Shown: piece after piece, positions 300 through 43,640 of the stretch
How the letters are laid out: every line of letters begins with the position of its first letter
Numbering within the stretch: position 1 is the stretch's first letter
From: Fistulifera solaris
Taxonomy: Eukaryota; Bacillariophyta; Bacillariophyceae; Naviculales; Stauroneidaceae
Length of the DNA: 64,000 nucleotides
Reading direction: 5' to 3'
NCBI GenBank assembly: GCA_030295235.1
Contig: AP026157.1
Span: 62,001 to 126,000, forward strand
Notes under the pieces: model-generated
The model's database searches: none
What the model was told of the DNA's origin: nothing
The model's input: the letters and a program-made list of their open reading frames with translations, nothing else
Program-made: the position numbers and the translations under genes

Positions 300-809
300 A
301 AAGTCACTCGATGACACCTTTCGTCTGCGTTTCTGACTTCGGTTAATTGGTGACGTCGTGGGATCGTCCCCCACTTCGCAAAAGCCTTCCAGTTGAACTG
401 CCTACAAGAGTGCCGTGCGCTGAAAGTCGTACGAAGCGCTGTTTAATAAGGTAGATGATACCAAGCATGATCGCTACCATTGCGTTGCTACCACCAAACC
501 CTCAGAACCTTGATAGAAGCGGTTGAGCGCCTACAACTGATCAATAAATAGCCCATCCATGTAAATATCACCTCTCTCATTCATCACAGTGACTTTTCGG
601 TTTTTAGATAGCAACTTCCGAAGAAGGGTAAAGGAAGGACCACCGAACACGTAGTGTTCGTCGTCAACACTGATATTTAACGTACGAAGGAATTTGTGAT
701 CTTCAATGCCCTCAAAAAGCATCCAGCAGTGCATGGTCCATCGAAAATTGTCAGGGTCTGTTACCAAATCAAGGACCTGCAGATTTCTATCGGCGAGTGC
801 GGTGCTCAC
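300..809 (-). pseudogene. family A copy 1, 5'-truncated pseudogene
   Basis: Remnant of the C-terminal part of the family A protein. It begins at the segment matching 'LANRNLxVLDL' and has no trace of the first ~340 residues upstream. The conserved order is visible: an LRR-like strand, LLSKNR, then NRFYQGSEGLV. A TAG replaces the Tyr codon expected between 'IDQL' and 'ALNRFYQGS' (near 528-530). The reading then degrades, but 'SYDFQRTALL' and a Lys/Arg tail (SQKRRRKV, near 310-340) are still readable in the minus strand, with the usual 'LANHADVLCELV' segment missing between them. Multiple independent lesions make this a real pseudogene. Confidence 0.75.
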
Positions 810-899
810 AAGCTCATTTTACGTCGGATATTTGCCGTATCTCGCATGTATGTCGTATGTCGTTCTATCTTGTACTTTGCTCAATTCACGAAAATATCT

Positions 900-2441
900 T
901 TAACCCAATGAACGCGTTCGCTTTCGACCTTGTCTCGACGGTTTAAGAGCGTAAGCCCCCAAATCAACATCTGCATCGACAAGCGAATATTGAACGGATT
1001 CACACAGTAAATCGAGGTGATCGGATAACAGCAGAGCGGAGCGCTGCAGATCGTTTCGTGAGTTCTTCAGTAAAGCAGTCGCCACCAACGACAATCGCTC
1101 CGAGGGTGGCTCTGCAACAAGCCCCACCGAGCCCCGATAAAATCGATTAAGGGAATAATGTGCATTGATCATCAATCCATTGGTAAAAATTTGATCGTCG
1201 AAATTCATCACTACGACATTTCGGTTGTGACTTAGGAGCTGCCGAAGACGATCAAAGTTAGGACCGAACGCTAATTCTTTATCCTTCACGTCGAGTTTTA
1301 CTATGCGAAGACCCTTGTGATCTCGTAAGCCTGTCAAGAGTGTCGATATGTGCCAGTCCCAATCTAGACGCCCTTCATCCACACACAAATCCAAAACTTC
1401 TAAGCTTTCATTGGCAAGAACGACGCGGATAAGTTCTTCCACGATTCTTTTAGATAAGTCGACGGTTTCCCAAGTTTTGAAACTGATATGCAACTCTCTC
1501 AAATGCCTCAAATCAGCGAGACGTCGGAGAAACGCGATCACTGGCTCAGCTGCAAATAACTTCGTGTCATGCTGGGCGGGATCAATAATCATTATAAAAA
1601 GCTTTTCGGCTTTAATGTCAATGTCACCAGTTAGAGCAGTATCCAGTGAAGCTGCGCTAAGACAAAAGTCAAGGGAATTTGTTTTAGCAGCCAAAAACTG
1701 ACGAGTAATATCATCTGAGGCTTCCCTGAGAGGTATCTCTAAATGTTCGATGGCGTCAATTTGAAAGAGTCGTTGCAAATTGTTTTCATTGAGAGCATTT
1801 GTAAAGGGAAAATTGAGCGAGCCGAACGATGATTGCCGAGTTTCGAGCACACTCACAAAAGCAGTTCCCTGGTCTGAAAACGTACAATCCTGTAAAACGA
1901 TCGAAGTAGCACGAGGACGAGCGGCTATCACAGCCGACTGCTCGGCACTCAGCGCAATGTCTTGAAAATCGATCGTCGAGGACGATGAACACGCCTCGAA
2001 AAACTGCGAGAAACACTGCGGTCCAGCCGCCGAAAGATCCAACATGTTGCGACGCGAATAGGCAGTTAGAGAGCAGCATTTGTCCGTCGGTTGTACTAAG
2101 CCGAGGAAGAAGGCAGCTGATTCCGCTATTGCTTCGTCTGTTTTTCCAGCATTGTACAACTGAAGACCGATAGTATCAAACTGGAAGACCAGACCTCTCC
2201 CTATGCGACTCGGCCAGGCGTCTACACCGTGAGGTACAACATAAGTCAGCGTCTCATTTTCTCGCCAAATGGCTATTTGGTGATTATATTGGTTGAGTTC
2301 TTGTAGATTCTTAGGAGTACGAAGGAGCGTAAAAGTAAGTTCGTTTCCTGATTGACTCCAGCACGGTTCCTGCTCGCGCTTGCGAAGGAAATTCGGAATT
2401 ACGCCAAATAATAAGCTTGGGTCAGCGCTGCTATCAGTCAT
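900..2441 (-). CDS. family A copy 2, intact leucine-rich protein (513 aa)
   Basis: One of two copies open from start to stop and the reference for the family. I do not recognise a named domain family and assign no function. Visible blocks: SLLFGVIPNFLRKREQ (res 9-24); LLRTPKNLQELN...AIWREN (39-62), which in most paralogues is YKLLRxPxNLQEL...IWREN; an acidic/Ala helix AIAESAAFF (104-112); LSAEQSAV then DQGTAFVSVLETRQSSFGSL (164-209); LRR-like strands LRHLRELHISF and LANESLEVLDL (311-352); GLRDHKGLRIVKLDV (371-385); FGPNFDRLRQLLSHNRN (392-408); NRFYRGSVGLV (432-442); LQRSALLLSDHLDLL (465-479); basic tail. No signal peptide or membrane segment, so probably intracellular. ATG at 2439-2441 aligns with other copies. 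The LRR-like reading suggests a binding or adaptor role, but that is inference. Confidence 0.85.
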   Translation of the reverse strand: MTDSSADPSLLFGVIPNFLRKREQEPCWSQSGNELTFTLLRTPKNLQELNQYNHQIAIWRENETLTYVVPHGVDAWPSRIGRGLVFQFDTIGLQLYNAGKTDEAIAESAAFFLGLVQPTDKCCSLTAYSRRNMLDLSAAGPQCFSQFFEACSSSSTIDFQDIALSAEQSAVIAARPRATSIVLQDCTFSDQGTAFVSVLETRQSSFGSLNFPFTNALNENNLQRLFQIDAIEHLEIPLREASDDITRQFLAAKTNSLDFCLSAASLDTALTGDIDIKAEKLFIMIIDPAQHDTKLFAAEPVIAFLRRLADLRHLRELHISFKTWETVDLSKRIVEELIRVVLANESLEVLDLCVDEGRLDWDWHISTLLTGLRDHKGLRIVKLDVKDKELAFGPNFDRLRQLLSHNRNVVVMNFDDQIFTNGLMINAHYSLNRFYRGSVGLVAEPPSERLSLVATALLKNSRNDLQRSALLLSDHLDLLCESVQYSLVDADVDLGAYALKPSRQGRKRTRSLG

Positions 2442-2900: not shown

Positions 2901-4524
2901 TCAGAATTCGTAGAGAACATTATCATACTTCATTCTTTTGTGGCTGCGATAAAGAGAAGCCTCCGATGTCGATTCCCCTGCCACATGATGCGAACTAGAA
3001 AAGGTATCAAGATTTTCTTGAAGGATCTCGCAAAGCATATCGGTGTGGGTCACTAGCAATGTTGCAGTACGCTGGTAGTGTTCCGACGCGGTTTCGGTCA
3101 TCGCGGTAGTAACAAGTGAAGTTCGCACGGAAGGAGGCTCTTTTCCCAATTCCGTTGATGTACGATAGAAGCGGTCCCGGTAGATTTTGCCAATCTTTCC
3201 GGTAAAGCATCGTCTTCCGGTTTGATCGTACACGCTGATATTCTGATTGCGGGTCAGCAGCTGCACCAGCGAGACATCCATACTGTCGGACCAGCAGCAT
3301 TTCGTTCGAAAGGACAGCAGCGATTCGTGTCGTTCCATGGCTCGGTATACGTTTACCAGCCATGGAGTCCATTCAAATGATGATCGGGCATTATCGAACA
3401 GACTGAAACGCTTCAATCGAGGGTTCGCATGTATTACTGCGACGAGTGCCAGAACAATACGGTGCAGCATGTCCCGGTAGTAATCCCATGAGGAGCGCTC
3501 GAGAGAAAGATCAAGTCGCTCCAAGTGACTGAACTGAGCCAGTCGATTGAGAAAAGTTATGACATAGCGATGCCAGTCGTCTCCCTTGAGATCATCCAGG
3601 TTGAGTGTAATCGTCAGTTCTCTCGGGACGATCTGCAATGACGCAAGAGAGACGACGCCAAAGTTTTGGCGCCAATCTCATAATGAAGCGCGTTGGTCAT
3701 GGCGAACGGAAGAAGGGCACATTCTTTCTCAGGAATCGGGCCGACACCCAATGTTTCAAATACATGGAGTCTCAAAATGCGTTCCAAGTATTCGGGACGG
3801 ATCGGCATCTCGTCATTGTCGCACGCAAAGCGGTCGTACGTAATGAACAGTGACCCAAAGGAAGATTGTCGTCTCTCTAACGCCTCAACAAAGGCTCTTC
3901 CACCATCTTGAAAAGCAAACATTATTCGGTCCTGGGCAAAGGAAACTTTCTTCGGTTCACGCTGCGTTACAAACTTCAAGTGAATCGAATACGGTCGTGT
4001 CGCTAACGCTTCGGCTTGTCCTGCACTCCAGATGCCCTTGTGTATTTCAAAAGCACGCTGCGGATTGGCATCCAAGATAGCTACCAGTTGTTCCGGTTGC
4101 AGGGCCGTACAGTCGAATAACTGTTCGGGGTTGTAACTGAAAAAGGTACCGACAGCGAGACGTGGATCGCGGTCTCTTGATTGAGACAGCGACCAGAAAA
4201 AGGTTGCTGTTTCGGCAACCGCAGCATCCGTTTTGCCGTAAATGGCGCATTGGAGCGTCTTTTGTATGTCACTACTCCGAATCTCAAAGCAAACATTGCG
4301 TTCCTCGTACAACAAATGAGCCGAAGGCCCTACACTGATGAGCGTCCCGTTCTCACGCCAAATTGTGATATTCTTACGGCGATAGAGTTCCCAGTCAATG
4401 TCGTGCAAGCATCGCGGTTCTTTGAGCATTCGGAAAAGAACAAACTGTCGTGCCTCAGAAACGACATGGGACGAAAGGACGCTTGTTCGGGCGACAGTTC
4501 ATCGAAGGGGATGATTTCGAGCAT
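2901..4524 (-). pseudogene. family A copy 3, two frameshifts
   Basis: Near full-length copy split over three frames. The first piece starts at the ATG at 4522-4524 (MLEIIPFDELSPEQ). It passes out of frame at an AAAA run near 4434-4437, where 'FRMLKEP', the equivalent of the family 'LLRxP' block, continues in the -1 frame. The second break is near 3641-3650: 'IGAKTLASSL' runs into unrelated sequence while the next frame carries 'LQIVPRELTITL' and the rest to a stop at 2901. Both breaks equal loss of one base. Downstream blocks (LLTRNQN, RFYRTS, YQRTATLLVTHTDMLCEIL) are conserved but more divergent than in the neighbours. Pseudogene, or a gene with two assembly indels. Confidence 0.65.
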
Positions 4525-4746
4525 GTTGTTTTCTCTTCCATCGCTCCATTTCGAGTCGTTAGCCGATCAAGTTGCGATTGTTTGAAATGTGAAAGATAAT
4601 AATGAAGGCAATTATACGACAGTGATCAAGAATTGAGAAATTCAATAAGCCATGCTTTGAGGCAGCAAAAATGTCATCGACGGCATTTTTTCTTTTTGTA
4701 CGGAGTATTTTTTACTTTTTACGGATCGAGACAATTCTTCCCATCC
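4525..4746. other. spacer between copy 3 and the 34-bp array
   Basis: Short AT-rich spacer with a TACGGAGTATT motif near 4699. No gene seen. Confidence 0.4.
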
Positions 4747-5780
4747 CCAGATTTTCTGGAAAATTGTTCAACTGTTGGTCCAAATTTTCTGGACAGAGAA
4801 GATTCCTCTTCCCAGATTTTCTGGAAATTTGAATATACTGTTGGTCCAGATTTTCTGGACCAGAGAAGATTCCCCCTTCCCAGATTTTCTGGATTATTGA
4901 AGATACTGTTGGTCCAGATTTTCTGGACCAGAGAAGATTCCCCCTTCCCAGATTTTCTGGATTATTGAAGATACTGTTGGTCCAGATTTTCTGGACCAGA
5001 GAAGATTCCCCCTTCCCAGATTTTCTGGATTATTGAAGATACTGTTGGTCCAGATTTTCTGGACCAGAGAAGAATGCCTTCTCACAGATTTTCTGGAAAA
5101 TTGAAAATACTGTTGGTCCAGATTTTCTGGACCAGAGAAGATTCCCCCTTCCCAGATTTTCTGGATTATTGAAGATACTGTTGGTCCAGATTTTCTGGAC
5201 CAGAGAAGATTCCCCCTTCCCAGATTTTCTGGATTATTGAAAATACTGCTGGTCCAGATTTTCTGGACCAGAGAAGAATGCCTTCTCACAGATTTTCTGG
5301 AAAATTGAAAATACTGCTGGTCCAGATTTTCTGGACAAGAGAAGAGTCCCCCTCTCACAGATTTTCTGGAAACTTGAATATACTGTTGGTCCAGATTTTC
5401 TGGACCAGAGAAGAATGCCTTCTCACAGATTTTCTGGAAATTTGAATATACTGTTGGTCCAGATTTTCTGGACCAGAGAAGAGTCCCCACTCGCAGATTT
5501 TCTGGATTATTGAAGATACTGTTGGTCCAGATTTTCTGGATCAGAAAAGATTCCCGTCACCCAGATTTTCTGGTAGATTGAAGATACTAATGGTCCAGAT
5601 TTTCTGGACCAGAGAAGAATGCCTTCTCACAGATTTTCTGGAAAAATGAAGATACTGTTGGTCCAGATTTTCTGGACCAGATAAGAATGCCTTCTCACAG
5701 ATTTTCTGGAAACGTGAAGATACTGTGGTCCAGATTTTCTGGACCGAAAAAATTCCCATTCTCCAGATTTTCTGGAGCAG
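4747..5780. repeat. 34-bp tandem repeat array with hairpin core (31 units)
   Basis: I count 31 copies of a core close to CCAGATTTTCTGG, spaced almost exactly 34 bp (for example 4846, 4880, 4914, 4948, 4982, 5016, 5050). Two spacer types alternate, 'ttattgaagatactgttggt' and 'ccagagaagattcccccttc', so the higher-order unit is 68 bp. Each core is an inverted repeat around TTT. In every other unit it extends to GGTCCAGATTTTCTGGACC, an 8-bp stem with a 3-nt loop. The first and last units are diverged and the middle is nearly uniform. Because 34 is not a multiple of 3, the minus strand has a long open frame (4894-5490) of repeated peptides; I take this as a by-product rather than a gene. Confidence 0.95.
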
Positions 5781-6017: not shown

Positions 6018-7500
6018 TCATATCAGTTGCGAGTCATCCCAAGCCGTAACAGCAACAAGCTCACATAATGCATCAGCATGATGTGCTAGCACAAGAGATG
6101 ATCTCTGAAAGTCGCCCGCCGCTCTCTCTATCAAGGCGGCTACCACGAGCGATGATCGCACGGAAGCTTCCTCCGCTCCAAGACGCACAGATCCACAATA
6201 GAACCAGTTCAATTTGAAAAGAGCATCTATACGGGGTCCATCCGAATAGGCATATCCTTCATTATCCTCCATTCCAATGTATCGATTATGATTGAGTAAG
6301 CGAAGAAGATGGACGTAGTCGTGACCGAATGCCTCTTCTGGGTAGTCGACCTTGATCTTCAAAGTCTCTAGTTTTGGGTGGTCTTTGAGACCTTCAAACA
6401 GCGTCACGAAGTGCGAATCCCACGGCATTTCGTCGTCAGTGGTAAATAGGTCGAGATAAAAGAGGTCCTTGTTCGCCAAGACCGTCCGGATCAGTTCGTT
6501 CGCCACACAAGCCGGTATGTCATCATAGTTACGAAGAGGGAAGCTAATTTTCAGCTTTTCAAAATGCCCCAATTCTGCAATGCGTCGGAGAAGAGAAAGC
6601 ACCGGTTCTGTTGGAAATTCTTTTCGCTAGTGTAGATCGCGAGATAGAGATTGGTAGCCTGAATATTCAGTGATTCGAAAGTAGTATCCAAGGAAGATAT
6701 CTCCAAGCAGCAAGTAAGCGAATAGAATTTTGAAGACAACGTCATTAACGTAAGGTCGTCATTATTCAGCCAGGGCACTCGTAAAGCATCTATCACTTCG
6801 AGCTGCAAAAGGCGCTTCAGGTTATACTCATTGAGAGCCAAGGAGCCTGCAAATGCTAACGAGCTGAAGTTGTCGAATTTTCGATGGGCCAGCGTATCGA
6901 CGAATTTTTTACCACTATCTTCGAAAATACAGGACTTGAGCGTCAGAAAAAGGGATGCAGCTTGGTTGCGAGAACCTCCGACTGCTCTATGCTCAACGTC
7001 ATGTTTCGAAAGGTTACATCCCGTCCTGGATTCATTTCAAACAGTCGAGATAAACATTGCGACCCCGCTGTACGAAAATCGAACTTACGTTCTCCATTGA
7101 GGGTGCACACACAAATGGAGGATCCACCGTCGCTCGGTTTCTCTAAACTCATAAAATAGGCGGCCGTTTCTGCCCTGGCTTGTTCCGAATCGCCTACGAT
7201 GTAAAAGATAGGTCCATCGTCATAGAAAGCCACGCACAAATAATCGTTAACATCCGGGCGATTCGGGTTATGCGATGGCGAAACATACGTATGAGTATTA
7301 TTCTCTCTCCAAATCGCCCTTCCGTACGCAAAACTGTTCAGTTCCTGCAGACTCATCGGATCTCGCAGCAGAGTATACGAAGACAAAATTCCCGATTTTT
7401 TCCAGTGGGCGAGCTGGGTCATCCAGTTCGGATTGAGTTGAAGGAGAGCGCCGATGTTCTCATCCTCGTCATAGTAATAGTGCGTCCAACTCAAACAATC
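6018..7500 (-). pseudogene. family A copy 4, full-length type with two frameshifts
   Basis: Reads from 'YYDEDENIGALLQLNPNW' (about 7465) through the IWREN, ETAAYF and LSIEQSEVLAT blocks. It breaks at a five-base homopolymer at 6947-6951, continues in the -1 frame (LKSCIFEDSGKKFVDTL, then LNEYNLKRLLQ), and breaks again at a four-base run at 6621-6624. From there 'EFPTEPVLSLLRR' and the C-terminal half run to a stop at 6018. Both breaks equal loss of one base. No start codon is preserved: the N-terminus is fused out of frame to the truncated copy 4a upstream. It belongs to the subgroup whose N-terminus reads MSFD. Confidence 0.7.
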
Positions 7501-7936
7501 GAGATAAACAATGAGGCCCCGCGGCACGGAAATCGAAGTCACTTTCGTCACTCGAAACACCAACGGAAAAATAATCATCCGTAGGTTTCATTATATTGAT
7601 GAAATACGCCGCCGTTTCCGTTATTGCTGCTTCCGTGTTTCCCGCAATGTACAGAATAGGACCGTGGTTGTAAAATGCCACGCAAAAGAATTCAGGTACA
7701 ATTGAATAATCGCGGTTCTGGGACGGCGAAACATACGTGACAGTCCGATTTTCCCGCCATATCGCTTTTCCGAAAGGAAATTCGTTCAGTTCCTGTACAC
7801 TCAGCGGATCTCGAAGCAATCGATACGTCGGCTCAATTCCCAACCTTTCCCAGCGGGCCGTCTGCCAGTGTATATTCAATTCTTGAAGTAGTGCGCCGCT
7901 GTTTCCTTGCTCGTCCGAGTCGTCATCAAACGACAT
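7469..7936 (-). pseudogene. family A copy 4a, N-terminal fragment (about 155 aa)
   Basis: Starts normally (MSFDDDSDE, ATG at 7934-7936) and carries the first third of the protein: PTYRLLRDP, AIWREN, AITETAAYF and DFRAAGPHCLSRLFEL. It then stops abruptly at 7469, where the sequence switches into the N-terminal region of copy 4 in another frame. The missing two thirds and the direct junction of two N-terminal regions look like unequal recombination between tandem copies. It could still be transcribed and yield a short protein. Confidence 0.75.
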
Positions 7937-8445: not shown

Positions 8446-9956
8446 TCAACGAAGCAAATCATTTCTTCGTCTCTTTCGACTTGCGGTGGGCATTGTTTTA
8501 TCGCCGTCATCCATTTCGACAGCAAACGCAAGAAGTTCACACAACACATCCGCATGATGTGCTAGCGAAAGAGCGGATCGCTGAAAATTGTAAGCGGCAC
8601 TTCTCATTAAGACACTTGCCATCAACGGTGATCGTAGCGAAGGCGGCTCGGTCCCAAGACGCTCTACGCCACAATGAAATCAGTTCAATTTGTAAAGCGC
8701 ATCGATCCGTGGCCCGTCTGTATAGACATATCCATCGGAGTCCTTTACTTCAATGTATTTGTTGTATTGAATTAGCTGCTGGAGACGAAAATAGTTGGGA
8801 CCAAACGCTTCCTCTTCATTGTCAACGGTGATTTTTAACGTATGAAGCTCTTTGTGACCTCTGATTCCTTCAAACAGCTTCCCAACATGCAAATTCCACG
8901 TCAGATCGTCCTCAAGCGTACAAAGATCCAGAACCTTTAATTTTTTATTAGCAAGAGCAGCGCCGACAAGTTCTTCCACAACGCAGTCAGGTATTTCAAT
9001 ACCGTCTTTATGAAATAAAAACTGTAATTTCAATTCCACCAAATGGCCCAATTTTGCCAAACATTGAAACAGGGACAGTGCGGCTTCCGTTGGAAATGCG
9101 TCCAAGTTGCTGGAGATCGAGAGATACAGTTTTTACTGGTAACAATATTCAGAGATTCAAAATCCGAGTCCATGGATGAAATGGACAAGCAACAGTCCAA
9201 TGATTTCACTTTTGCAGAGAAGGAAAGACGAGTGACTTCGTCGCTAAGCAAGGGCAAGTCCAAATGATGAATGACATCAACTTGAAAGAGACGCTTCAGA
9301 TTGTCATCGCTGATATCCATGTAGAAGTTATCTCGAAACTTCAACGAGCCAAACATCGATCTTCGGGTTGAAAGTGCATCAACAAATGCAGTGCCTTGAT
9401 CCTCGAACCCACAATCTTTGAAAGTCAGCTTCAAAGGATATGATTGTGTCGCTAAAACCGCAGATTGCTCCGCACTCAGCGTCAACCCTACTAAAATAAC
9501 GACGCGAGGTGGACTGATCGCAAACAATCGAGACAAGCACTGCGGCCCAGCGGCGCAAAAATCCAATTGACCGACGCCAATATTGTCGATACAGATAAAA
9601 TCATTATCATGATAGCGAGCATCCTTTAGATCCACAAACAATGCGGCTGTTTCGGCAACGGCATCGTCGGATTTACCAACAATGTAAAACGTAGGATCGT
9701 CGTCATGAAACGTCAAACACAGGTATTTAGGAAAGCAATGCGGCATGTCATGATTTCGGCAAGTTGAAATGTATGTGAGAGTCCCATTGTCCCTCCAGAT
9801 GGCAAAAACACGTCCGTAGTGTGCAAACTCTTGTAGATCGCGAGGATCGCGAAGCAGCTTGTACGTCGGAGAAACACCCGTATCCCAGCATGCCAGCTGT
9901 TCGGGTGTGCGAGAACTATACGGAATAAGTTCTAGAAACGAGTCTTCGTTCTGCAT
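8446..9956 (-). pseudogene. family A copy 5, one frameshift and one in-frame stop
   Basis: The start is placed at the ATG at 9954-9956 (MQNEDSFLELIPYSSRTPEQ), which aligns with the family N-terminus; an upstream codon extends the frame without similarity. The N-terminal 280 residues are intact, including PTYKLLRDP, VAETAALF, LSAEQSAVLAT and DQGTAFVDAL. The frame is lost at a five-base homopolymer at 9130-9134 (one base missing) and resumes as 'LYLSISSNLDAFPTEAALSLF'. At 8680-8682 a TGA stands where relatives have Trp in 'KLNWFYCGS'. The same frame then continues with TEPPSLRS, FQRSALSLAHHADVLCEL and a basic tail to a stop at 8446. The Trp-to-stop change supports true inactivation. Confidence 0.75.
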
Positions 9957-10218: not shown

Positions 10219-11716
10219 CTATCTTCTACGTTTTCGGTCTTGATTCGACGGTAATAGGGAACCGTCATCATCAGGCCCCGAGTCGACAATAGCAAAATGA
10301 ACAAGCTCGCACAACATGTCTGCATGATTCGCTAATAAAATATGCGACAAATGAAAGTCATTCGAAGCTGCTTCCATTAACGTGGTCGCCACTAAGGATG
10401 GGCGTATTGAGGGTGGCTCCATCTCTAGATCAATCGAGTCGCAGAAAAAACAGTTGAGACGATAGAGCCGTTCGATTCGGGGTGTATCGATATAAATTCT
10501 TTCTTTGTCATCCATTACTCCAATGTATCGGTTGTGAATCAATAATCGTTCCAGATGGATACAGTTGGGACCGAATGCCTCGGGTTTTTCTACAGCAAGT
10601 TTTAATCTATACAGTGCAGGGTGATCTTTGAGCCCTTCGAAGAGTCTCGAAAAGTGCGAGTCCCACTTCACATCGTCATCTTCATCCGTATAAAGATCTA
10701 GAACTTGTAAGCTCTTGTTCGCGAAAACAGTTCGAATCAGTTCTTCCGCAATGCAGTCCGGTATTTCATCAAAACTTTCAATAGGGAATCTGACTTTCAA
10801 GTACACAAAATGACCCAACTGAGCAAGGCGTTGCAAGAAAGCAAGGGTGGGTTCAATGGGAAAACCCCCGTACCAGGAGCCGATGTTCACAGAAAGTCGT
10901 TTCGTCCAGACTTCTAACGATTCATAGTTAGAGCCCTCGGGCGACACGTCCAAATGGCAATCGAGAGAGTTCACCTTTGCAGAAAAAGCCTGCAATTGAA
11001 GGACATTATTGTCTAGAGAGGGCAAACTCAGATAGTTAAGCACGTTGAGTTGAAAGAGCCGCTGTAGGTTGTTGTCATCTAGGGAAGCTGGATACTCTAA
11101 TCTTAAAGAGCCGTACGACAATTTGCGCTTTGCAAGTGCATTCACAAACGCGGTGCCCCCATCCTCAAACTTGCAACCCCTGAACATCAAGTCCATAGGA
11201 TCCGGCATCGTGGCTAACACCTACGACTGCTCCACGCTGAGAGTCATGTACTCCAATGAGACTGTCCGTGAAGGGTCTATCTCAAATAAACGCGACAAAC
11301 ATTGAGGCCCAGCGGCTCGGAAATCAAAGTCATCGTCATCACTGCGCAGACACACGGAAGATTTGCCATCGATGGATTGCTCCAAGCTCATAAAATAGGC
11401 CGCCGTCTCTGCCGCAGCGTTCTCGGTAGTACCAACAATGTGCAGCGTCGGGCCATTGTCGTAGTAAGCAACGCGAAAGCAGCGATACTCGCGCGGTTGG
11501 TTGCGATTCTTATGTGCTGCAACATACGTCAGAGTCCCGTTCTCCCGTCAAATGGTGTATCCCGCCACCCGTTTTAATTCTTGCAAATGGAGGGGATCGC
11601 GAAGCAGACCGCACGTCGGCGAAGATCCGTCCGCGAGCCGATGAGTGTACCAGGTACGTTGGAATGATTCTGGGCAACGGATCGACGTCTTCATCGGAAC
11701 CGTAGTCGAAAGACAT
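10219..11716 (-). pseudogene. family A copy 6, two in-frame stops and an N-terminal frameshift
   Basis: Start at ATG 11714-11716 (MSFDYGSDEDVD). The frame shifts within the first 35 codons, before 'SSPTCGLLRDP'. The IWREN motif reads I-stop-REN because TGG has become TGA (11548-11550). A second stop, TAG at 11221-11223, lies in 'LSVEQS-stop-VLAT'. From there to the stop at 10219 the reading is continuous and well conserved (333 codons): EDGGTAFVNAL, GFPIEPTLAFLQRLAQLGHF, GLKDHPALYRLKLAV, LLIHNRYIGVMD and a basic tail. Two independent nonsense changes point to a real pseudogene. Confidence 0.8.
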
Positions 11717-11767
11717 TATTTTGCTATATTCGCGAGCTTAGCAATGTTAAATGACAAATATAAGGAG

Positions 11768-12770: not shown

Positions 12771-12994
12771 GGTACACAGTCTAGTGTGAAAAGCATTTGG
12801 TTGAATTGACCAATTTTATTATTCTCTAAAAAGTACTCCGTATTATTATCATACACACGACAGGGTTGATTTCCAGTCGCGAAAGCTATCGACCTCTTAT
12901 AGAAAACATAGAGTTAGATCAGACGAAAAGATCAACCGTAAAAAGATTAAGTTCAGCGAATATCTGATTGAGCCACTGCGAATATTGATGTCGA

Positions 12995-18587: not shown

Positions 18588-18828
18588 GTTTGTAAGATGA
18601 AATGAACGGATAAATGGTTTTGGTTTCAAATGGCAAAAATTCGCATTTTGATGTCGCGTTCAAAATTTCGCTTCGGAAAAAAACGCGCCCTCAAAATGTT
18701 TTTCGGTAGGACGAGAACTCGTTTTATAGTTATTTTCACATAGTTCGGGAATCGATCTTCATCTTAGCATCTACTTTGAGTCCATGAAGCCTTTTGTGGT
18801 CGATGAACTGTAATTTCGGCGCCAGAAG

Positions 18829-23803: not shown

Positions 23804-24267
23804 GTAGTAAAGGAGAAGAAAGTCGACGACGAAATTCACAGTACGAAACACTGAGAAGCTGGCCGAGAAAAAGCTATGATAGGATAAGAGCGTTTGTTTT
23901 CTTTTTGCTAACAAGCTACCGTCGTTCCTTTCGCCTGACATTTCCGGACTCGAACAAAGGGATGTGATATGATTTATAAGCTTGCATATCTATTGAAGAA
24001 AAGGATAGTGAAAACCATTTTAACCCCAAAAGATCATCGCAATAAACGCAGCATCGCGTTGCTCGCATCTTGCCACTCATGACTGCGGCATCCAGTCGTG
24101 AAAAATCTTGTCAAAATATTAGTTGCGACTTGCGACGCATAGCTTCGTCATAGCTTCATAGACTATAGTGATGGGAAATAAGATACTATAAGGCTAAAAA
24201 CAATCATAGGAGCAGCAAGTATTTTTCATCTCACATCATGACGTTGTCAAGAAGTCCGCATGCTTGG
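23804..24267. other. intergenic with palindrome motif
   Basis: Upstream region of copy 11 and 3' flank of copy 12. Contains CATGACT (24078-24084) followed by AGTCGTG (24094-24100), an imperfect inverted repeat shared with the 5' flank of copy 12 and with the 229-bp array. No gene. Confidence 0.4.
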
Positions 24268-32799: not shown

Positions 32800-33107
32800 G
32801 CTATTATAACAAGAAAAGATGATGATGATGAATGATGGTGATGATGAAGCATCGATCATCATAGGCTGCGCATTGTCTTGAACGGAGTACCGAATGATGG
32901 TTTTGCACATAGTGTAAAATTCCGTATGCGACAAACTCACGGATTGAAACTATGTACACCTAGATTATGACGTCCTTATGCTCTTTAGCAAGCTGCAAGC
33001 GCATAAAGGAGAAGTAATAAAAAAGTGATACTAGATCTTATATCATTTAAACGCAATGGATCATCTTAACGTTGTCTTTTTCTGGAGTAATTTGGATCAC
33101 TTAGAGC
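32800..33107. other. intergenic, no gene seen
   Basis: About 300 bp upstream of copy 16. Contains a GATGATGAT-rich stretch (32818-32850) and AACGGAGTACC (32880-32890). No gene. Confidence 0.4.
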
Positions 33108-34500
33108 GCGAAAAGCTATTTACGGCAGCTTGCATCAAGGCAGTTGCTACCAGCAACGATCGGTCCGATTGTGGCTCCACGACAAGTCTTGGTGAACCCA
33201 GATAAAAGCGATTGAACGCATACAACTCGTCCACGGATGATCCGTCCGTAAAAGCGCCTATCTAGCACAGTCGCGTCTCGCTTTGCCGAGAGAAATTCTC
33301 GAAGGAGCTGAAAGTTGGAACCGAAGTCAAAATCAAAGACGGAAATTTTCAAGGTACGCAGTCCTTTGTGATCTTTGAGAGCCTGCAAAAGACATTCCAT
33401 GTGCGGTTTCCAGTCCACAAGATCGCAGGAAGTATGCATATCCACATCGAGAACTTGGAGGTGAGGATTGGCGAATACGGCTTTCATCAGTTCCTCCACA
33501 AAGCAATCGGGCACAAAGACCGGTTCACGATCTCCTTCCGACTGAATGATCAAGTAGAGTTTCAGTTCTTTCAAGTGATCCACCTTTGCTACGTGACGCA
33601 TCAACGAATTCATACCGTCGATAGGAAAGCTAAGTCCTTCTTTCTGTATAGTGAGAGAAAGTTTTTTCGCCTTGATGTCAAACGTGTTGGCTTCGGCAAG
33701 TGCGGACGAAGAAATTTCTTAATCCAGCGAGTCCACTTGCGCCGAAAAAGGAAGCTGGACATTTCTCTCCAAGCAAGGCCATTTCAAGTTCTCGAGCACT
33801 TCGACATGTAGCAAAAGCTGTTTCATATCTTCTCGCTCAACTCGATACCCTAGTCCAAGGTCAACGATCCGAAGGAGAAATGACGCTCTTCGAGAGCTCG
33901 AACAAATTGCGTACCGCCATCGTCAAGAAATCCTCTCCCGCCAACGTCAATTGGACGGGATAGGGTCGGGTAGCGAGTATCGTCGACTGTTGCGCATTCA
34001 ACTTCATATTCTTTAAGGTTACGTGGCGTGTCGGTGATAGTTCTAACATCGGCTCCAAGAAATGGGAATGATCTGGACAGTACTTAAAGTAACAGTGAGA
34101 ATTGCAATCGGACTCGACTTTGAGTGCGCCCTCGGAAGCTCCCTGCAAGCTCAGAAAGAACGCCGCGGTTTCCGCAATGTCACAAGTCGTCGGTCCGACA
34201 ATATCCAAGCAAAGATCGATGTCACAAAACTGTAAGAGAAGATAACAACGATGATGCTGCGGAAATGGTCGTTCACCTCGCGGCATAACGTAGGTCAAAG
34301 TGGAGTTACTCTCACGCCAAATCGCTAAACGATTGTGGGCATTCAACTCTGACAAGTTGCGTGGGTTCCGCAGCAGCGTATACGTGGGTGGTGAATCGAG
34401 GGGGTTGTCACGTCCACTCCAGTGAGCCTTTTGCTCGGGCGTACGCAGGTGAGGGAGGAATGAGGGAAAGCAACGGGCCGAACGCTTCGTTTTCGTCCAT
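33108..34500 (-). pseudogene. family A copy 17, degenerate
   Basis: Start at ATG 34498-34500 (MDENEAFGPLLSLIPP). One extra base in a C run shifts the frame before 'HLRTPEQKAHW'. It then reads PTYTLLRNPRNLSELNAHNRLAIWRES, IAETAAFFLSL and NAQQSTILATRPYPVQLTL. One base is missing before 'FLDDGGTQFVRALEERHFSFGSL', a TAG follows 'LTLD', and further shifts scatter the middle. The last third is readable (GMNSLMRHVAKVDHLKELKLYL, LQALKDHKGLRTLKISVFD, FLSAKRDATVLDR), then shifts again (DELYAFNRFYLGSPRLVVEPQSDRS) and ends at 'AAVNSFSRSK', without the ALLLA...ELV segment and tail. A strongly decayed copy. Confidence 0.75.
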
Positions 34501-35277: not shown

Positions 35278-35633
35278 TTATTCTAATAGCTGCGAAGATT
35301 GAATGAATTCGTGTAACACGTCGTCGTGACCCGACAACAAAAATGCAGCAAACCAAAACGGAACGAGCTTTTGTTGACCAACACGGTTGCTACCAGCGTG
35401 GACCGCGCCGACGGGGTTCAGCCATTTTTGCGTCCAGTCACAATACATTCGATTGGAGGAGTACAGATGATGTACCACTCTTCCGTCCGTATAAACATCA
35501 CCTTTCTTGTTACGACAGTGATGAGTCTGTTGTGCGAAACCACTTTTCTCATATGCAAGTAAAAAGGACGGAAAGAGCAACCGGAAGCTTCTAGTTTCAA
35601 AATGCGCAGCATAGTGTGATAGTGCAGCAAGAG
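35278..35633 (-). pseudogene. family A copy 18, C-terminal fragment
   Basis: Only the last ~110 residues remain, over two frames. One frame gives 'MLRILKLEASGCSFRPFYLHMRKVVSHNR'. The other gives GDVYTDGRVVHHLYSSNRMY, QQKLVPFWFAAFLLSGHDDVLHEFIQSSQL and a stop at 35278, with no basic tail. It abuts the 3' end of copy 19 (35637), so it looks like a fragment left by recombination rather than a decayed full gene. Confidence 0.65.
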
Positions 35634-35636
35634 AAG

Positions 35637-37186
35637 TTACTCGACTGTGCGTCGCCGTTTCTGATCCTGTAATGATTCTAAAGAAGGATCGCCATGATCC
35701 GTTTCATTCACATGGTGTGCAGCTATTAATTCGTGTAAGACGTCCTCGTGAGTCGACAACAAAAGAGCAAAGCGCTGAAAATCCCTCGAAGAGCTTTCCG
35801 TCAAAGCGGTCGCTACAAGCGTTGATCGGTCAGGTGTTGGTCTCGCCAGTAGTCTCGCCGAACCTGCAAAGGGGCGGTTGAACGAGTAAATCGAATCGAC
35901 CAGTTTCCCGCCCGAATAGATAGGGCCATCGTGGTGCACGACTATCATGCTCCGTTTATGAGAAATAAACTGTCGAAGATGAACAAAGTCGGGACCGAAT
36001 GATTCATCGGGAACATTCAATTTCAACGTTGAAAGAGCCTCGTGATCTCGCAAGCCGTATAAGATTGTCTTTACATGCGGTATCAAATCCAGATCATCAA
36101 CTGTAGTAGTCAAATCTAGGACTTTCAAACCACGATTGGCAAGAGAAGTGAGGATCAGTTCGTACACAATGCAGTCGGGGATTGTCAGACGTCGTCTATT
36201 ACTACTACGTCGGACATCGAAATTGACTTTCAACTAAACAAAATGGCCCACGGTAGCTAGTCGCCGGAGCAAAGCAAGTATGCCTTCAGTAAAGAAATCT
36301 TCATCATCAACGTGAACCAAAGTTAAAGACAACCTGTCGGCTACAATCTCAAGCGTGTCAACAAGATTCGGCTCGAGCACGCGCGCAAAAATCCAACACT
36401 CGAGAAACTTCACTTTTGCCATAAGAACAATAGCGTCAACATCGTCGGCAGCAACGTCTGGCAAAGCCAAATGATCCAGTGCGTTGATGTAAGACACCAA
36501 CCGACATAGATTGTCGTCACTAAGCCCAGTAATTAGATCAAGGTCTTCATCATCTTCAAAGTCTCTGATCTCCTCGAACGTCAACGACCCAAATGATGAA
36601 ATTCGATGCTCGAGCGCCTCTAAGAACGAAGTGCCGCCGTCTTCAAATTTACATTTCCAAAGATTCAACGAAATGGGATGAGATCGCGTTGCCAGCGAAA
36701 TAGACTGCTCTGTGTTTAGCATCAAATGATCTAGATGCACCTTCCGTGACGGGTCTACCTGAAAAATGCGATCCAACAGCTGCGGTGGTGGAGCGTAGCA
36801 ATAAGTAGCAAAAACTCGATGCATATTTCCGATGGTGAAAACGGAACCTTCCTGTGTTAATTCTTCCATTTCCATGAAATACATCGCCGTGTCGTAAATG
36901 GCATCATCTTCTTCACCGGCAATGTAAAGCGAAATTCCGTTGTCACCGAATTCTAAGGAAAGACCTCGCAGCGGCGTCGTAAAATCCGGTAACTTTACAG
37001 GATAATCGTCATTACCCGCCGGCGACACATACGTTACAGTACCATTTCCTCGCAAAATCGCCATACAGTCGTAGTTGTTCAGCTCTTACAGGTTGTTCGG
37101 TTTTCGAAGGAGCTTGTAGGTGAGCGCCTGCGGGTAGACGGAATAAGTCCTAACAGCAAACTGGAGTGCTCGTATTCATCTGACAT
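35637..37186 (-). pseudogene. family A copy 19, two stops and an N-terminal deletion
   Basis: Start at ATG 37184-37186 (MSDEYEHSSLLLGLIPST). About 15 codons (the LRxPEQxxYW segment) are missing and the frame shifts before 'ALTYKLLRKPNNL'. A TAA then replaces Gln in 'LQEL'. From 'MAILRGNG' the frame is open for 276 codons, including VHLDHLMLNTEQSISLATRS, EDGGTSFLEALEHRISSFGSL and ALLRRLATVGHFV. A TAG at 36234-36236 stands where relatives have Glu in 'GHFVELK'. The same frame continues to the end with NRGLKVLDL, LRDHEALSTLKLNV, FISHKRS, FQRFALLLSTHEDVLHEL and the tail KRRRTVE. With three separate lesions in one reading, it is a true pseudogene. Confidence 0.8.
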
Positions 37187-37714: not shown

Positions 37715-39258
37715 TTACGCTCGTCGGGGACGCTTCGGAACCTGATATGCAGTCGATAAAGCCTCCTCACATTCATCCAACGGAACAGCCTGGATAAGGT
37801 CTAGCAATGCATCGGTATTATCGGATAGCAATAGAGCCGAGCGTTTCAAGCTAAATCGACATTTTTGCAACAAAGCGGTTGCTACGAGCGGGGCGCGTTC
37901 GGACGGCGGCTCAACCACTAGAGCCTTCGAGCCGCAATAGAAACGGTTCAGAGAGTAGATTGCAGGGATGCCATACCTGTCCCCGTGAATACGTTCGTCC
38001 TTGTCCATTACCGTGATGCTTCGGTTGTGCGAAATCAGGTTTCGAATATACGAAAAGTCGCGACCGAACGCGTCATAGGAACCGTTGATTTTCAGCGTAC
38101 GAAGTGCAGAGTGATCTTTCAACCCATCAAGCAGAGTCTCCAAGTGCGCGTCCCATTCCAGATCACCGCGCTTTGCGGTCAAATCAAGAACTTCCAGGTT
38201 ACGATTGGCAAAAACGGTGCGGATCAGTTCTTGTACTATGCTTTCTGGTATCTTCATGACTTCTGGCTTGAAATCAAATCTGAATTTAATTTTCTTGAAA
38301 TGCCCCAGCTTACCAAGATGACGAAAGAAAGCAAGCAGAGTCTTTGTAGGAAAACCTCCTTGGTATTCATTTTCGAAAGAAAGCGCCAGATTTTCGGCCA
38401 CGATGTCGAATCCTTCCAAACCATTGACCAGTAAGTTAGGGTCCAGATAAGTTATGAAAATACCACATTCGACAGATTTCACTTTCGCACAAAGGGCATC
38501 CAGAGCGAGTTCAGCCTCGTGAATCATAGGAGAACCAAAATGTTCTAGCACTTTGACCTGCAGAAGACGCTCCAAGTTGTCACGACTCAACCCAAACTGA
38601 TCCTCATCGTCGTCGCCTTGCCCGTTAAACGTCAACGAGCCGAACGACGATGTTCGCTTCGTAAGCGCATTCACGAAGGCAGTGCCTTCGTCTTCGAATA
38701 CGCAGTCGTCTAGAGTCAGAGAAATCCTATAGGGTTTTGTCGCAGAACAGTCGACTGCGCTGCAGTCAATGACAAATCGGTCAAACGAATCTCGCTCGCG
38801 CTAATTCGTTCAAATAATTGAGCGGAACTCGAAGATCGATCGCCACTAAAGTAAAAGCGATCCTCGATTGTTGAGACGTGGAATATGGAGTCCTTCCAGT
38901 TGTGAAAGCTCATGAAAAATGCTGCAGTGTCGACAATTGCATCTTCTGTTTCTCCGACGATGTACAACGTAGGACTTGCTTTCCCGAGTTCTATAGTCAA
39001 TGATTTTCGATCTTCGCAAGACAAATGCGGAGAATTACCACCAAAAGGCACAACATACGTAAGAGTTTCGTTTTCCCGCCAAACAGCCAACTGCTTGTAC
39101 GGGTTGAATTCCTGCAAGCTCGTCGGTTTTCGCAGGAGCGTGTACGTAGACGATTCTTCTCCTTCGTCGTCCTCCCATTGAGCTTTTTGCTCGGGCTTGC
39201 AAAGAGAAGGTGGAATAAGTCTTAAAAGTAGACCGTGGACTTCAAATTCGTTCGACAT
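37715..39258 (-). pseudogene. family A copy 20, one frameshift
   Basis: Start at ATG 39256-39258 (MSNEFEVHGLLLRLIPPSLCKPEQ). The first 170 codons are intact (YTLLRKPTSLQEFNPYKQLAVWREN, IVDTAAFFMSF, LTAAQSTVL). Near 38744 one base is missing: the expected 'ATKPYRISLTLDDCVFEDEGTAFVNAL' is in the -1 frame. The rest is complete: ALTKRTSSFGSLTF, GGFPTKTLLAFFRHLGKLGHF, NRNLEVLDL, LKDHSALRTLKI, LISHNRSITVMDKDERI, NRFYCGSKALV, LKRSALLLSDNTDALLDLI, tail KRPRRA. It contains the acidic GDDDEDQ insert also seen in copies 19 and 22. One base away from a complete gene. Confidence 0.72.
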
Positions 39259-39930: not shown

Positions 39931-41404
39931 CTAGGATTCGCCAATTTCATCTAACCGAGCTGTCTTGATGAGTTCCAACAGTACATCAGTATGATCGGCC
40001 AACAAAAGAGCAGAGCGCTGCAGGCTTAAGTGGCCGCTTTCCACCAAGGCTGTCGTTACGAGAGAAATTCGCTCGTTCGGTGACTCGAGAACGAGAGCCT
40101 TCGAACCACGATAGCAGCGATTCAACGCGTAGATCTCATTGATCACTCCCTTATCCGTGTGAACGCGTCCGTCGCCGTCCATCACCGCGATGAACCGATT
40201 GTGCGAAAGTAGCTTTCGAAGATAAAGGTAAAAGGGACCTACAGAGTCCTTGGACACACTTACTTTGAACGTACGAAGCGAGGCGTGATCTTTCAAACCT
40301 TTCAGAAGCGTCTCCAAGTGCGGGTCCCAGTTGGCAAAGCCACCGCTCAAATCAAGTACTTCCAAATCACGATTGGCGAGAGCCATACGGATCAGTTGCT
40401 GCACAACTCCTTCGGGATAGCCTCCCGAATTGAAACTGAATCCTAGCTCCTTGAAATGCCCCAACGTTTCGAGGTGACGGAAGAAAACAAGTAGGATATC
40501 CGTCGGAAACGACGTCATCCAATCATGCTCAAAGTATAGCGCGAGATTCTCAGCCACAATGTTACAAGACTGCAAATCACACGTCAATGAAGTAGCGTCC
40601 AAGTCAGGTACGTAGAAACTGCAGGCAAGCGACTTCATTTTTGCGGAAAATACAGTAAGATCGAGTTTAGCATCATCCAAGATAGGTAAGCCCAAATGAT
40701 CTAGCGCTTCGACTTGCAAAAGACGTTCGAAATTGACATGGCTGATCGGGACATTGTTTTCAATCGTCAAGGAGCCGAACGACGACTTTCGCTTCTCGAG
40801 CGCATCCACAAAAGCAGTACCGTCATCTCCGAAGAAACAGTGGGTGACAGTCAAGTCGATCGGGTAGGGTTTTGATGCGAGAATAGTCGACTGCTCTGCC
40901 CTCAAACTCAAATCCTTTAAACTAACACGGCTAGCGTGGGCGAGCTCAAACAGCTGGTTAGAAATCGAGGAGGGAGCGCAGCTAAAGCTGAAATATTCGT
41001 CGAACGTAGATAGTTGAAAAAATGAGTTCTTCTCCGCCGGGTCATGAACGCTCATAAAAAAAGACAGCAGTCTCTACAATCGCATCTTCTGTTTTTCCAA
41101 TAATATGCAAGGAGGGGTTGTTGTCACCGAATTCAATAATCAATCCGTCCGTATCGTCTATTGGGTCTGGAACAAATGTATCACCCGCAGGCACAACATA
41201 TGTCAGAGTTCCATTTTCCCGCCAGATGACCAATCTCCCGTACGGATTGAATTCCTGTAGATTGACAGGTCTTCGCAGAAGCTTGTAGTGGGCAGGCGAT
41301 TTGTCTCCGGTTCCTACAAACCAGAACGGCGATTGCTCGGGCTTGCGGAGAGAAGGCAAAATGAGACCTAATAATAAGCTGGGGTCTTCGAATTCGTTTG
41401 ACAT
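39931..41404 (-). pseudogene. family A copy 21, one frameshift in an A7 run
   Basis: Start at ATG 41402-41404 (MSNEFEDPSLLLGLILPSLRKPEQ). The first 115 codons are intact. At the A7 run 41056-41062 one base too many converts 'ETAVFFMSVHDPAEKN' into 'ETAVFFYERS-stop'. The following 374 codons are complete (LRAEQSTILASKPYPIDLTV, GDDGTAFVDALEKRKSSFGSL, SFPTDILLVFFRHLETLGHF, NRDLEVLDL, LKDHASLRTFKV, LLSHNRFIAVMDGDGRV, NRCYRGSKALV, LQRSALLLADHTDVLLELI). It ends ARLDEIGES without the basic tail of the other copies. Removing one A restores a complete gene; A7 is a classic error-prone and slippage-prone site. Confidence 0.75.
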
Positions 41405-42079
41405 GTTGTGAACAAAGAGATGCGAAGGTCAATCGCAGACATAATGAAGAAAAGCTTTGAACGCTCTCTCGGTTTTATTTCTCTTTCAGCGCAACAAAAT
41501 AGCAACAAAACGGACCCGGTTTATAGATCATTGACATTGATACGTCACGCTGTCACGCTCCTCGACCGGTACCCAAAATCAGTATTTAAGTATGTCTTCA
41601 TTCCGTTGAATCGACGATACGGTACTTGAAATGCATATTGCAAAAGAAGACCGTGACCTTGGTGACATGCACAGCTCAGAAAGTGTGAGCTAAGGTGATC
41701 TGCATAAAACAGGAATTGCTATTGTATCACGTCAGTCAACTATAGTGGTCTCTAAGTTAGTTTCTCAAGAAGTAAGACATCTTGCTACACTGCTCTTTGG
41801 TGTTTCTGACCTTGATTTAAATGGAACAAAGGAAAGGCGTTCCATTTAGTTCCTCGAGCGGTACATTTCTGTCCCTAGCAAATTAGTTAAAAACAGACGT
41901 TATCTTGTTGTAGCTTCTCGTAATTCTCGTCGTCAGCAACTAGTCCAAAAGAAAAAAGGAACATGAATAATGTTAAACTACAACAGCGAAAGAATAACAG
42001 CTAAATCTTATCTCTTTGGCTTTACTGCGTTACATATTGCAACAAAGGCAACAAATCTGTTTCTCAATGAGACAGTTGC
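41405..42079. other. intergenic with 5' flank similarity and a 3' relic
   Basis: Holds the presumed promoter of copy 21 (similar to that of copy 19, including 'cgaccggtacccaaa') and the short family A tail relic. Nothing else seen. Confidence 0.45.
41780..41830 (-). pseudogene. 3' relic of family A
   Basis: Within the gap between copies 21 and 22, the minus strand reads 'NQGQKHQRAV-stop', the counterpart of the family tail NQDQKRxRxM. Only this tail is recognisable, about 300 bp from the true 3' end of copy 22. Confidence 0.5.
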
Positions 42080-43640
42080 TTACATTGTTCTTTGTCGTTT
42101 CGAATCATTGGTCGATCCCAACAAAGAAGTGTTGTCATGCGTCTCGTCCTCAAGATGCGTAGATACGAACTCGTGCAGTATATCATCATGGTTCGATAAC
42201 AGAAGCGCACAACGTACGAAATTTCTCGAAACATTTTCCACCAAAGTGGCTGCTACAAGCAATGATCGGCCGGGCGATGGCTTTGCCACGAGTCCCGTCG
42301 AGCCTGCATAAAAGCGGTTGACGGAATAGAGATCGTCGACCAGACTCCCGTCTGAGTAGATTTGACCGTCGTATCGCATGACAGCGACGTTTCTTTTCTG
42401 AGAAAGAAACTTTCGAAGATGCACGAAGTCGGGCCCAAAATTATGAGAGTCGACAGTTAACTTCAACGTTGAAAGCGCCTTATGATCTTTCAAACCGCTG
42501 AAAAGTGTTTCCACATGCGAGTCCCATCGTAAGTCACCGTAAAAGCTACTACTCAAATCCAGGACATTCAAGCAACGATTTGCAAACGCAGCGAGGATCA
42601 ATTCTTCCACAATCATCTTTGGAATCGCCCCAGAGCGGCCTCTGAAATTGAATCTGACTTTCAGCTCAACAAAATGACCCAACGCAGCTAGGCGGCGGAG
42701 CAACGCAACTACAAAATCGGTTGGAAAGCCGCCAATTTCATCGTGGGTCAAAGTGAGGGAAAATTTAGTGGCCACAATATTCAGTGACGACTCCACGAAA
42801 TTCGGGACTAACAAGGGCACAAAAAGACAGCAGTCGAGAGAACTCACTTCCGAAGAAAGAGCAAGAGTATCCAGATCATCATCTACCAAGTCCGGTAATC
42901 CCAAATGATCTAGCTTGTCGCTTCGTAGCAGGCGCTTTAGGCTGTCGTCATTGAACCCTGTACTCTTCTCAAAGTCTTCGTCATCGAAGTTGTCTTCCTT
43001 GAATTCCACAAACGACAATGAGCCGAACGAGGATTGTCGGTTCTCAAGCGCGTTGACGAACGCAGCGCCTTCGTCTTCAAAAGCACAGTCCAAAAGTGTT
43101 AACACAACGGGATGAGGTTGCGTTGCCAGAGTAATCGACTGTGCTACACCCAATCGCAAGTCCTTCAAACAGACTTGCTTTGAAGGGGTCACCTGAAAAA
43201 TGCGTTCGAAAAATCGCGGATGAGCGAACAAAAATCGATTGATCCAACCCGTGTACCAATCCTAATTAGAGAGCTATCTTCTTTCGATTCTTCAATATCC
43301 ATGAAAAACTCCGCGGTGTCTACAATTGCTCACCGGCAATGTAAAACGAAAGACCGTTGTGACTGAATTCCAAGGACAGAATTCTTGAGTATAGCGTAGA
43401 ACGGCGATCAATATCTGGACGGTCGGTATTTCCAGGTGGTGAAACATAAGTAAGAGTGCCGTTATCCCGCAAAATAACCATGTGACCATATTTGTTGAAC
43501 TCATCCAAATTGACAGGTTTTCGAAGGAGCTTGTAGGTAAGAGACTGCTCGTCTTCCCAGTAAGGCAATTGTTCGCGTCTGAGAAGGCAAGACGGAATGA
43601 GTCCTAACAACAAACTAGAGTCCTCGAATTCGTCTGACAT
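42080..43640 (-). pseudogene. family A copy 22, two or three frameshifts
   Basis: Start at ATG 43638-43640 (MSDEFEDSSLLLGLIPSCLLRREQ). It reads YKLLRKPVNLDEFNKYG and VILRDNG (Trp of IWREN replaced by Leu, as in copy 19). It breaks near 43330, where a few codons before 'AIVDTAEFFMDIEESKEDSS' are lost. One base is missing near 43245, just before 'FAHPRFFERIFQVTPSKQV'. The remaining 380 codons are complete: VAQSITLATQPHP, EDEGAAFVNALENRQSSFGSL, an acidic insert, GFPTDFVVALLRRLAALGHF, NRCLNVLDL, LKDHKALSTLKL, FLSQKRNVAVM, NRFYAGSTGLV, FVRCALLLSNHDDILHEFV, tail KRQRTM. It is the rightmost copy and marks the end of the array. Confidence 0.72.

Follow-up and report, generated by a model that had tools for sequence, protein, structure and literature searches.

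The array and its copies

In the genome of the diatom Fistulifera solaris, a stretch of 64,000 nucleotides (the window, i.e. all the DNA analysed here) carries a long series of similar reading frames, which the annotation lists as hypothetical proteins. What do these frames encode, how many of them are still intact, and what might such a family do? To our knowledge, the intracellular recognition of viruses and bacteria in unicellular algae is largely an open matter, and a reading of the locus from its sequence alone had suggested recognition or conflict as a possible context.

A tblastn search with the first complete copy and a frame-aware profile scan both delineate a one-strand array of a single homologous family on the minus strand at 315-43640. 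The matches extend over hundreds of residues with E-values down to 2.7e-98, so that chance similarity does not account for them. The sequence-only reading had counted 23 loci plus a tail relic; the single family and the single strand hold, while the profile scan finds 23 places in the window, namely 20 near-full-length copies (at least 300 profile columns covered) and three fragments. Another fragment, the 24th place, is situated some 0.9-1.2 kb to the left of the window. The features, as called by the profile scan, are as follows (C43 is the contig with the homoeologous array):

315-818, minus: relic of a copy's 3' end (profile columns 331-508), three in-frame stops, zero frameshifts
906-2441, minus: copy 1 (P0001), 513 residues, fully open; modelled
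3018-4459, minus: copy of a divergent subfamily, one frameshift; homoeolog C43:36114-37655 is open, 70.8% amino acid identity between them
6027-7470, minus: copy, two frameshifts
7478-7918, minus: 5' fragment (profile columns 2-153)
8461-9899, minus: copy, one frameshift and one stop
10222-11628, minus: copy, two stops
12998-14490, minus: copy, one frameshift close to the 5' end
14811-16312, minus: copy, two frameshifts and two stops
17563-18550, minus: shortened copy, three frameshifts, one stop, large deletions
20429-21962, minus: copy, one frameshift; homoeolog C43:39284-40769, 73.0% amino acid identity
22314-23755, minus: copy, five frameshifts
24271-25588, minus: copy, three frameshifts, one stop, deletion of 69 columns
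25871-27414, minus: copy, one frameshift and one stop
27819-29332, minus: copy, one frameshift close to the 3' end
29646-31117, minus: copy, one frameshift and one stop
31285-32799, minus: fully open copy, 505 residues; modelled; decayed homoeolog C43:44301-45684
33103-34497, minus: copy, four frameshifts and one stop
35281-35627, minus: 3' fragment, three frameshifts
35646-37186, minus: copy, one frameshift and two stops
37718-39258, minus: copy, one frameshift in the window; open in the published FisN_26Hu140 (P0013), 98.3% and 99.7% identity in its two halves
39934-41404, minus: copy, one frameshift
42083-43640, minus: final copy of the array, two frameshifts

The copy at 3018-4459 clusters with a different subfamily from the others. 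The scan called no intron in the array copies or in the other loci scanned, as had been proposed; it permitted GT-AG introns of 45-450 bases in all phases and was run without an intron-bearing positive control. We therefore do not attribute the frame changes to introns.

The array is thus real, but the soundness of its genes is borne out only in part. Just two of the 20 near-full copies (906-2441 and 31285-32799) are open from end to end; the other 18 carry lesions, a single frameshift or stop in six cases and at least two lesions in 12. Across the 24 places, these add up to 34 frameshifts and 15 in-frame stops. Assembly errors may account for some of the frameshifts, because five of the 18 flanking open reading frames with a match also shift frame from one homoeologous contig to the other, and because the copy at 37718-39258 is open in its published version.

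Age of the array and loss of copies

Fistulifera solaris is an allodiploid, which allows the age of the duplications to be compared with the divergence of its homoeologous genes. The array copies share a mean identity of 37.6%, and even the most similar pair reaches only 55.0% at the amino acid level. For the three closest pairs, dS is 1.14-1.37, with higher values near saturation for further pairs, compared with 0.24-0.71 for nine flanking homoeologous genes. These values lead us to reject a recent local amplification: the duplications are old, and the change that we see is loss and decay. The homoeologous array on C43 is collinear but, compared with 24 places here, has only six, among which one near-full copy is open; since the copies are old, the array has changed by loss. 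The fast turnover proposed earlier consequently stands as far as it concerns loss, not as far as it concerns new duplications.

We also considered whether the missing homoeologs had moved elsewhere and rejected this, given that two segments of the array used as DNA queries (neither of which includes window positions 20101-23999) found a close copy only at C43. The other matches either were dispersed repeats that correspond to three intercopy blocks or were short, at 65-85% identity, some of these short ones lying at known family places. Genome-wide, two merged searches place the family at 144 sites on 29 contigs, with a long open frame at some 66 loci or more.

With at least two lesions in 12 of the 20 copies, the array locus may do little. 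One could accordingly regard it as the relic of a once useful cluster in near-neutral decay, with little function left here and possibly active members elsewhere. The lesion totals and the shrunken homoeologous site fit this explanation, which we nevertheless find rather doubtful: the array retains two fully open copies, as well as a third whose published annotation is open, single frameshifts may stem from the assembly, and three homoeologous pairs have dN/dS values of 0.31-0.49. Neutral dN/dS, which the sequence-only reading had named as evidence against itself, was hence not found.

Fold and family identity

Two predicted structures, fold searches and a deep profile agree on a leucine-rich repeat (LRR) protein, as had been suspected, and make it well supported that the family protein is a solenoid of the ribonuclease-inhibitor (RNI) type. 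The models, of P0001 (pLDDT 79.7) and of the copy at 31285-32799 (pLDDT 91.4, pTM 0.87), display repeating strand-helix units wound into a solenoid whose strands carry buried hydrophobic residues in alternation. In the predicted layout, a β-rich N-terminal part of about 120 residues is followed by the LRR (approximately residues 120-410) and by C-terminal helices, a module that may resemble the C-termini of other diatom LRR proteins. At E ≤ 0.001, Foldseek returned seven matches with the better model and 34 with the first; query-normalised TM-scores are low (0.18-0.41 among the matches listed) and the rmsd is often 5-10.

At the sequence level, the family is as nameless as it had seemed. Four family proteins have no Pfam match above the cut-off: three have none at all, and one has two weak matches (best 13.8 bits). 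P0001 scores 13.7 bits against LRR_14, below the curated cut-off of 40, and the copy at 31285-32799 is without a match. Larger sets of 21 and 77 members likewise gave no confident match, with best E-values of 0.026 and 0.0049, respectively, the latter to an LRR family; at E up to 0.1, the 77 members match 14 families. We thus reject membership in a known non-LRR family, the other outcome that had been named as contrary evidence. A sequence search of the PDB with one copy gave two matches (E 0.12 and 0.35), neither of them to an LRR protein, and viral and prokaryotic relatives were rejected as well, as tblastn confirmed none of 54 and 43 pattern matches. Giant-virus LRR proteins and RanGAP match by fold only. 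Protein searches based on shared five-residue words named no match from another diatom, many matches being nameless, and we found no paper on the family in the open-licence literature searched.

Variability and selection

The C-terminal helices are the better conserved part. In both subfamilies, variability is highest at the exposed positions of the LRR strands. Copies with at least two lesions follow this trend less strongly (p 0.0227; 0.08995 at a stricter threshold), and with the first model and a set of 42 copies, the stricter threshold gives p 0.0591. The idea of possible binding proteins gains support from this pattern, with binding itself a matter of inference, although variation on the exposed strands can also be the outcome of weak constraint. 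All dN/dS values obtained lie below 1, and those of the LRR do not consistently exceed those of the N-terminal part, so that diversifying selection is not demonstrated.

Possible roles

We favor, with about even confidence, an old tandem cluster that encodes an intracellular recognition repertoire and is decaying at this locus. Its products would probably be soluble intracellular proteins, composed of the β-rich N-terminal part, the RNI-type LRR, the conserved helical module and, in some members, a basic tail. The concave strand face of the solenoid may bind a member-specific ligand, whereas the C-terminal helices may dock all members onto one common partner; the ligands could be microbes, viruses or other proteins.

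Alternatively, the proteins could be substrate receptors of ubiquitin ligases, with the LRR face selecting the target and the N-terminal part or the C-terminal helices binding a Skp1- or Elongin-like adaptor. A constant module joined to a variable LRR would suit this role, and the fold matches include SKP2, FBXL2, FBXL17, COI1, TIR1, D3 and ZYG11B; in addition, there are very weak profile matches to SKP2 (E 0.6-2.2), and single members of the 77 match LRR_Zer-1 (E 0.025) and GIDE, a family that bears the name E3 ubiquitin ligase (E 0.08). We consider it unlikely, however, as such single-member matches are at chance level, the fold alignments mainly cover the solenoid common to many unrelated LRR proteins, and the F-box is absent from the 14 Pfam families, although divergent F-boxes can escape such a search. 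A structural scaffold or core-process regulator in the manner of RanGAP or axonemal LRR proteins, with copy number serving dosage, is highly improbable: dosage copies would not be expected to differ at about 62% of their residues on average or to be lost so heavily at the homoeologous site, and pennate diatoms lack flagella, which leads us to reject an axonemal role despite many axonemal LRR chains among the fold matches.

Returning to the recognition repertoire, a broader version of it remains tentative and, in our view, somewhat improbable: a lineage-restricted, NLR-free recognition system inside a single-celled alga, with well over 100 intronless LRR loci whose products would have a variable strand face and one conserved C-terminal helical module, the latter feeding a shared output. 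At this locus, amplification would have preceded the divergence of the two parental genomes, and the subsequent losses would have differed between them. Two homoeologous arrays in one allodiploid offer a natural comparison of cluster shrinkage, and the LRR family, which is large, unannotated and variable on its presumed binding face, provides concrete recognition candidates in a diatom reported to be amenable to genome editing (PMC13276009).

Comparison with known systems

Tandem LRR families in diatoms have already been reported (PMC7335047). As described there for Seminavis robusta, LRR proteins are named first among tandem duplicates, the tandem expansions are largely species-specific, and one expanded LRR family is linked to high-temperature acclimatization rather than recognition (PMC7335047). 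By this description, the two cases are alike in host group, LRR and tandem expansion.

The RNI-type LRR domain is that of ribonuclease inhibitor and of the NLRP/NLRC proteins, to which the family is about 10-20% identical over the fold alignments. Its N- and C-terminal parts are different from theirs. NACHT, PYD and CARD are unmatched in Pfam among the 77 members and lie outside the fold alignments, which are neutral on them. Neither NACHT nor NB-ARC, the ATPase domains that accompany the LRR in NLR receptors, occurs among the 14 Pfam families, and the part preceding the LRR is short and β-rich. The F-box LRR proteins (SKP2, FBXL, COI1, TIR1) share a similar solenoid and the combination of a constant module with an LRR, but Pfam gave no F-box match in the 77 members at E up to 0.1, a search that divergent F-boxes may escape.

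Brown algae are stramenopiles, as are diatoms. Their candidate immune receptors, encoded by LRR-ROC-COR (LRR-ROCO) genes, owe their variation to the shuffling of LRR exons (PMC11378527), whereas the present family has no called introns and no ROC-COR match in Pfam among the 77 members; both are nonetheless algal LRR repertoires for which a role in recognition is proposed.

The array and its homoeologous site

A profile-to-DNA alignment tolerating frameshifts, stops and introns places 23 family members in window 315-43640, all 23 on the minus strand, and one further fragment immediately left of the window. Twenty array places cover at least 300 profile columns; of these near-full copies, two carry no lesion, six carry one and twelve carry two to five. 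Between copies lie three tandem-repetitive blocks (4600-5750, 11650-12900 and 18700-20150). Their self-matches point to a repeat unit of roughly 65-70 bases in the first block and of roughly 230 in the second and third; related sequence is scattered across many contigs. A second small local family sits beside the array at 51406-60697 and consists of several TPR-repeat genes, in both orientations:

51406-53043, minus strand, TPR-repeat gene (Pfam)
53653-55095, minus strand, TPR-repeat gene (Pfam)
57748-58932, minus strand, TPR-repeat gene (Pfam)
59315-60697, plus strand, TPR-like gene (likeness by eye only)

F. solaris, an oleaginous diatom, is described as carrying two sets of homoeologous chromosomes (PMC5935921; PMC13276009). 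Contig C43 is the homoeologue of C42, which carries the array (the window is C42:62001-126000), because the array-adjoining gene (window 44215-45699) and its partner at C43:46661-48148 are 89% identical and the flanks align, with 79-86% nucleotide identity. This gene weakly matches Branch glycosyltransferase in Pfam (20.6 bits; cut-off 23.4), and the flanking genes 46474-47283 and 62419-63417 match phosphomethylpyrimidine kinase and glucosamine-6-phosphate isomerase/6-phosphogluconolactonase, respectively (Pfam).

The 20 near-full copies share on average 37.6% pairwise identity (range 25.2-55.0), and neighbours are only slightly more alike (40.4%). The three closest array pairs have a dS of 1.14-1.37, compared with 0.47-0.72 for three homoeologous array pairs (C42/C43) and 0.24-0.71 for nine flanking homoeologous ORFs, a subset of 18 matched ones chosen for one-frame matches. 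Since dS within the array exceeds that between homoeologs, the duplications that built the array predate the divergence of the subgenomes. The scan of C43 finds six places (the sixth exactly at the score threshold; tblastn counts five), three of them near full length and one of those open. Given the age of the duplications and the collinearity of the matched stretches (window 3018, ~15139, 20429 and 31285 with C43 36114, 38283, 39284 and 44301), most copies were lost from C43, not gained on C42. Such loss would fit the excess of unpaired genes described for one F. solaris subgenome (PMC5935921), to which C42 may belong.

Variability, selection and proposed role

In LRR solenoids of this type, the strands line the concave face. 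Among exposed (polar) LRR columns, the strands are more variable than the rest, at 2.74 versus 2.26 bits in 42 copies (p 0.0011), 2.14 versus 1.69 in the 12 copies free of lesions (p 0.0005) and 2.93 versus 2.45 in 76 homologues (p 0.0016), as well as in two subfamilies separately (p 0.00045 and 0.00705). Because the rows are related, all p values here are guides only. A stricter polarity threshold gives p 0.0229, 0.0047, 0.004, 0.0025 and 0.0047 for the same five sets in order. With the first model, the predicted structure of copy 1 (906-2441), the 42-copy set yields p 0.0028 (stricter threshold: 0.0591). In the 21 copies with at least two lesions the trend is weaker (p 0.0227; stricter: 0.08995), also with the first model (p 0.0472; stricter: 0.1816), and N-terminal strands show the opposite trend to LRR strands. 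For the 42-copy test, 12 of 54 rows (divergent subfamily and C43 copies) were removed; columns with occupancy below 60% were excluded, and exposure was called from mean hydropathy, not coordinates.

Homoeologous pairs have a dN/dS of 0.39 (copy 20429), 0.31 (3018) and 0.49 (31285, whose C43 partner is broken), against 0.008-0.23 in eight of nine flanking ORFs and 0.49 in one. The family evolves more quickly than the surrounding genes, and purifying selection on it is weaker. By region, dN/dS in the three pairs is 0.37, 0.24 and 0.49 for the LRR and 0.43, 0.54 and 0.48 for the N-terminal part; as the LRR value is higher in the third pair alone, and marginally, this weighs against a straightforward case for diversifying selection on the LRR.

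Recognition is the likeliest role: the LRR strand face would bind protein ligands that differ among members, and the better conserved C-terminal helices would form a docking module. The proteins are probably cytosolic or nuclear, because few members (4/58) pass a simple threshold for membrane helices, and the last 40 residues hold a basic cluster in 22 of 58, compared with 17 of 670 other 40-residue windows. One main rival to ligand recognition is that the family acts as ubiquitin-ligase adaptors.

Lesions and their reliability

The other main rival holds that the array is a decaying relic. The 24 C42 array places, 30.0 kb in sum, contain 34 frameshifts (1.13/kb) and 15 stops (0.50/kb). Lesion rates per kb and clean-copy counts thus rank the array as more decayed than two clusters on contig C30 (445-461 and 610-622 kb) and seven divergent single genes, which were picked among the best-scoring matches and hence are biased to sound copies; it is roughly on a par with the third C30 cluster (634-652 kb) and C7, and less decayed than the C43 site. 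A divergent-subfamily member at C42:5102-6617, 55 kb left of the array and outside the window, carries one frameshift and one stop.

Lesions at other family loci (profile-to-DNA scan; frameshifts/kb, stops/kb, clean copies)
C30, 445-461 kb: 0.60, 0, 5/8
C30, 610-622 kb: 0.41, 0.27, 3/5
C30, 634-652 kb: 1.14, 0.38, 0/6
C7, 223-233 kb: 1.38, 0.15, 1/5
C43 site: 3.38, 0.75, 1/6
Seven divergent single genes: 0.20, 0.29, 4/7

For 18 of the 21 flanking ORFs that are open on C42, C43 has a match (opposite C42:22-60 kb and 106-109 kb; three overlap at one place), and five of the 18 change frame on C43, including C42:41541-42449 with 98-100% protein identity. These changes point to residual indel errors in the assembly, or to small introns. 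Likewise, the sole published protein found for any window copy, P0013 (FisN_26Hu140), is open, whereas copy 37718-39258, 98.3% and 99.7% identical to it over the halves taken separately, is frame-shifted. Better reads are therefore needed before any single-frameshift copy is called a pseudogene; in-frame stops are less easily put down to such causes.

Family size and known LRR systems

In the 51.7 Mb genome (61 contigs), two merged searches, with a third left out, give 144 family places on 29 contigs, a few of which may be two halves of one gene (e.g. C17:37165-37839 and 38365-38658); otherwise the family has at least 144, as the candidates scored were 84 of 543 and 83 of 584. A long open frame (at least 1150 bases aligned, no stop, at least 430 codons) is present in 66 of the 144. 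C42 contributes 15 merged places, versus 25 by local scan. A second array at C17:21-146 kb comprises 26, found mostly with the divergent subfamily as query; C18, which we assume to be the homoeologous contig, has 8 listed at 9-74 kb, and both loci use both strands and hold many long open frames. Three protein searches returned 18, 20 and 56 matches, the last comprising 26 named F. solaris and 30 without an organism name; no other organism is named among the matches of the three, which required shared words, such that distant diatom relatives may escape.

Tandem LRR families are already described in the diatom Seminavis robusta (PMC7335047), and LRR repertoires for recognition have been put forward in brown algae (PMC11378527). 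New, as far as the literature was searched, are the unannotated family itself and how large it is, the variability of its strand face and its unequal loss between subgenomes.
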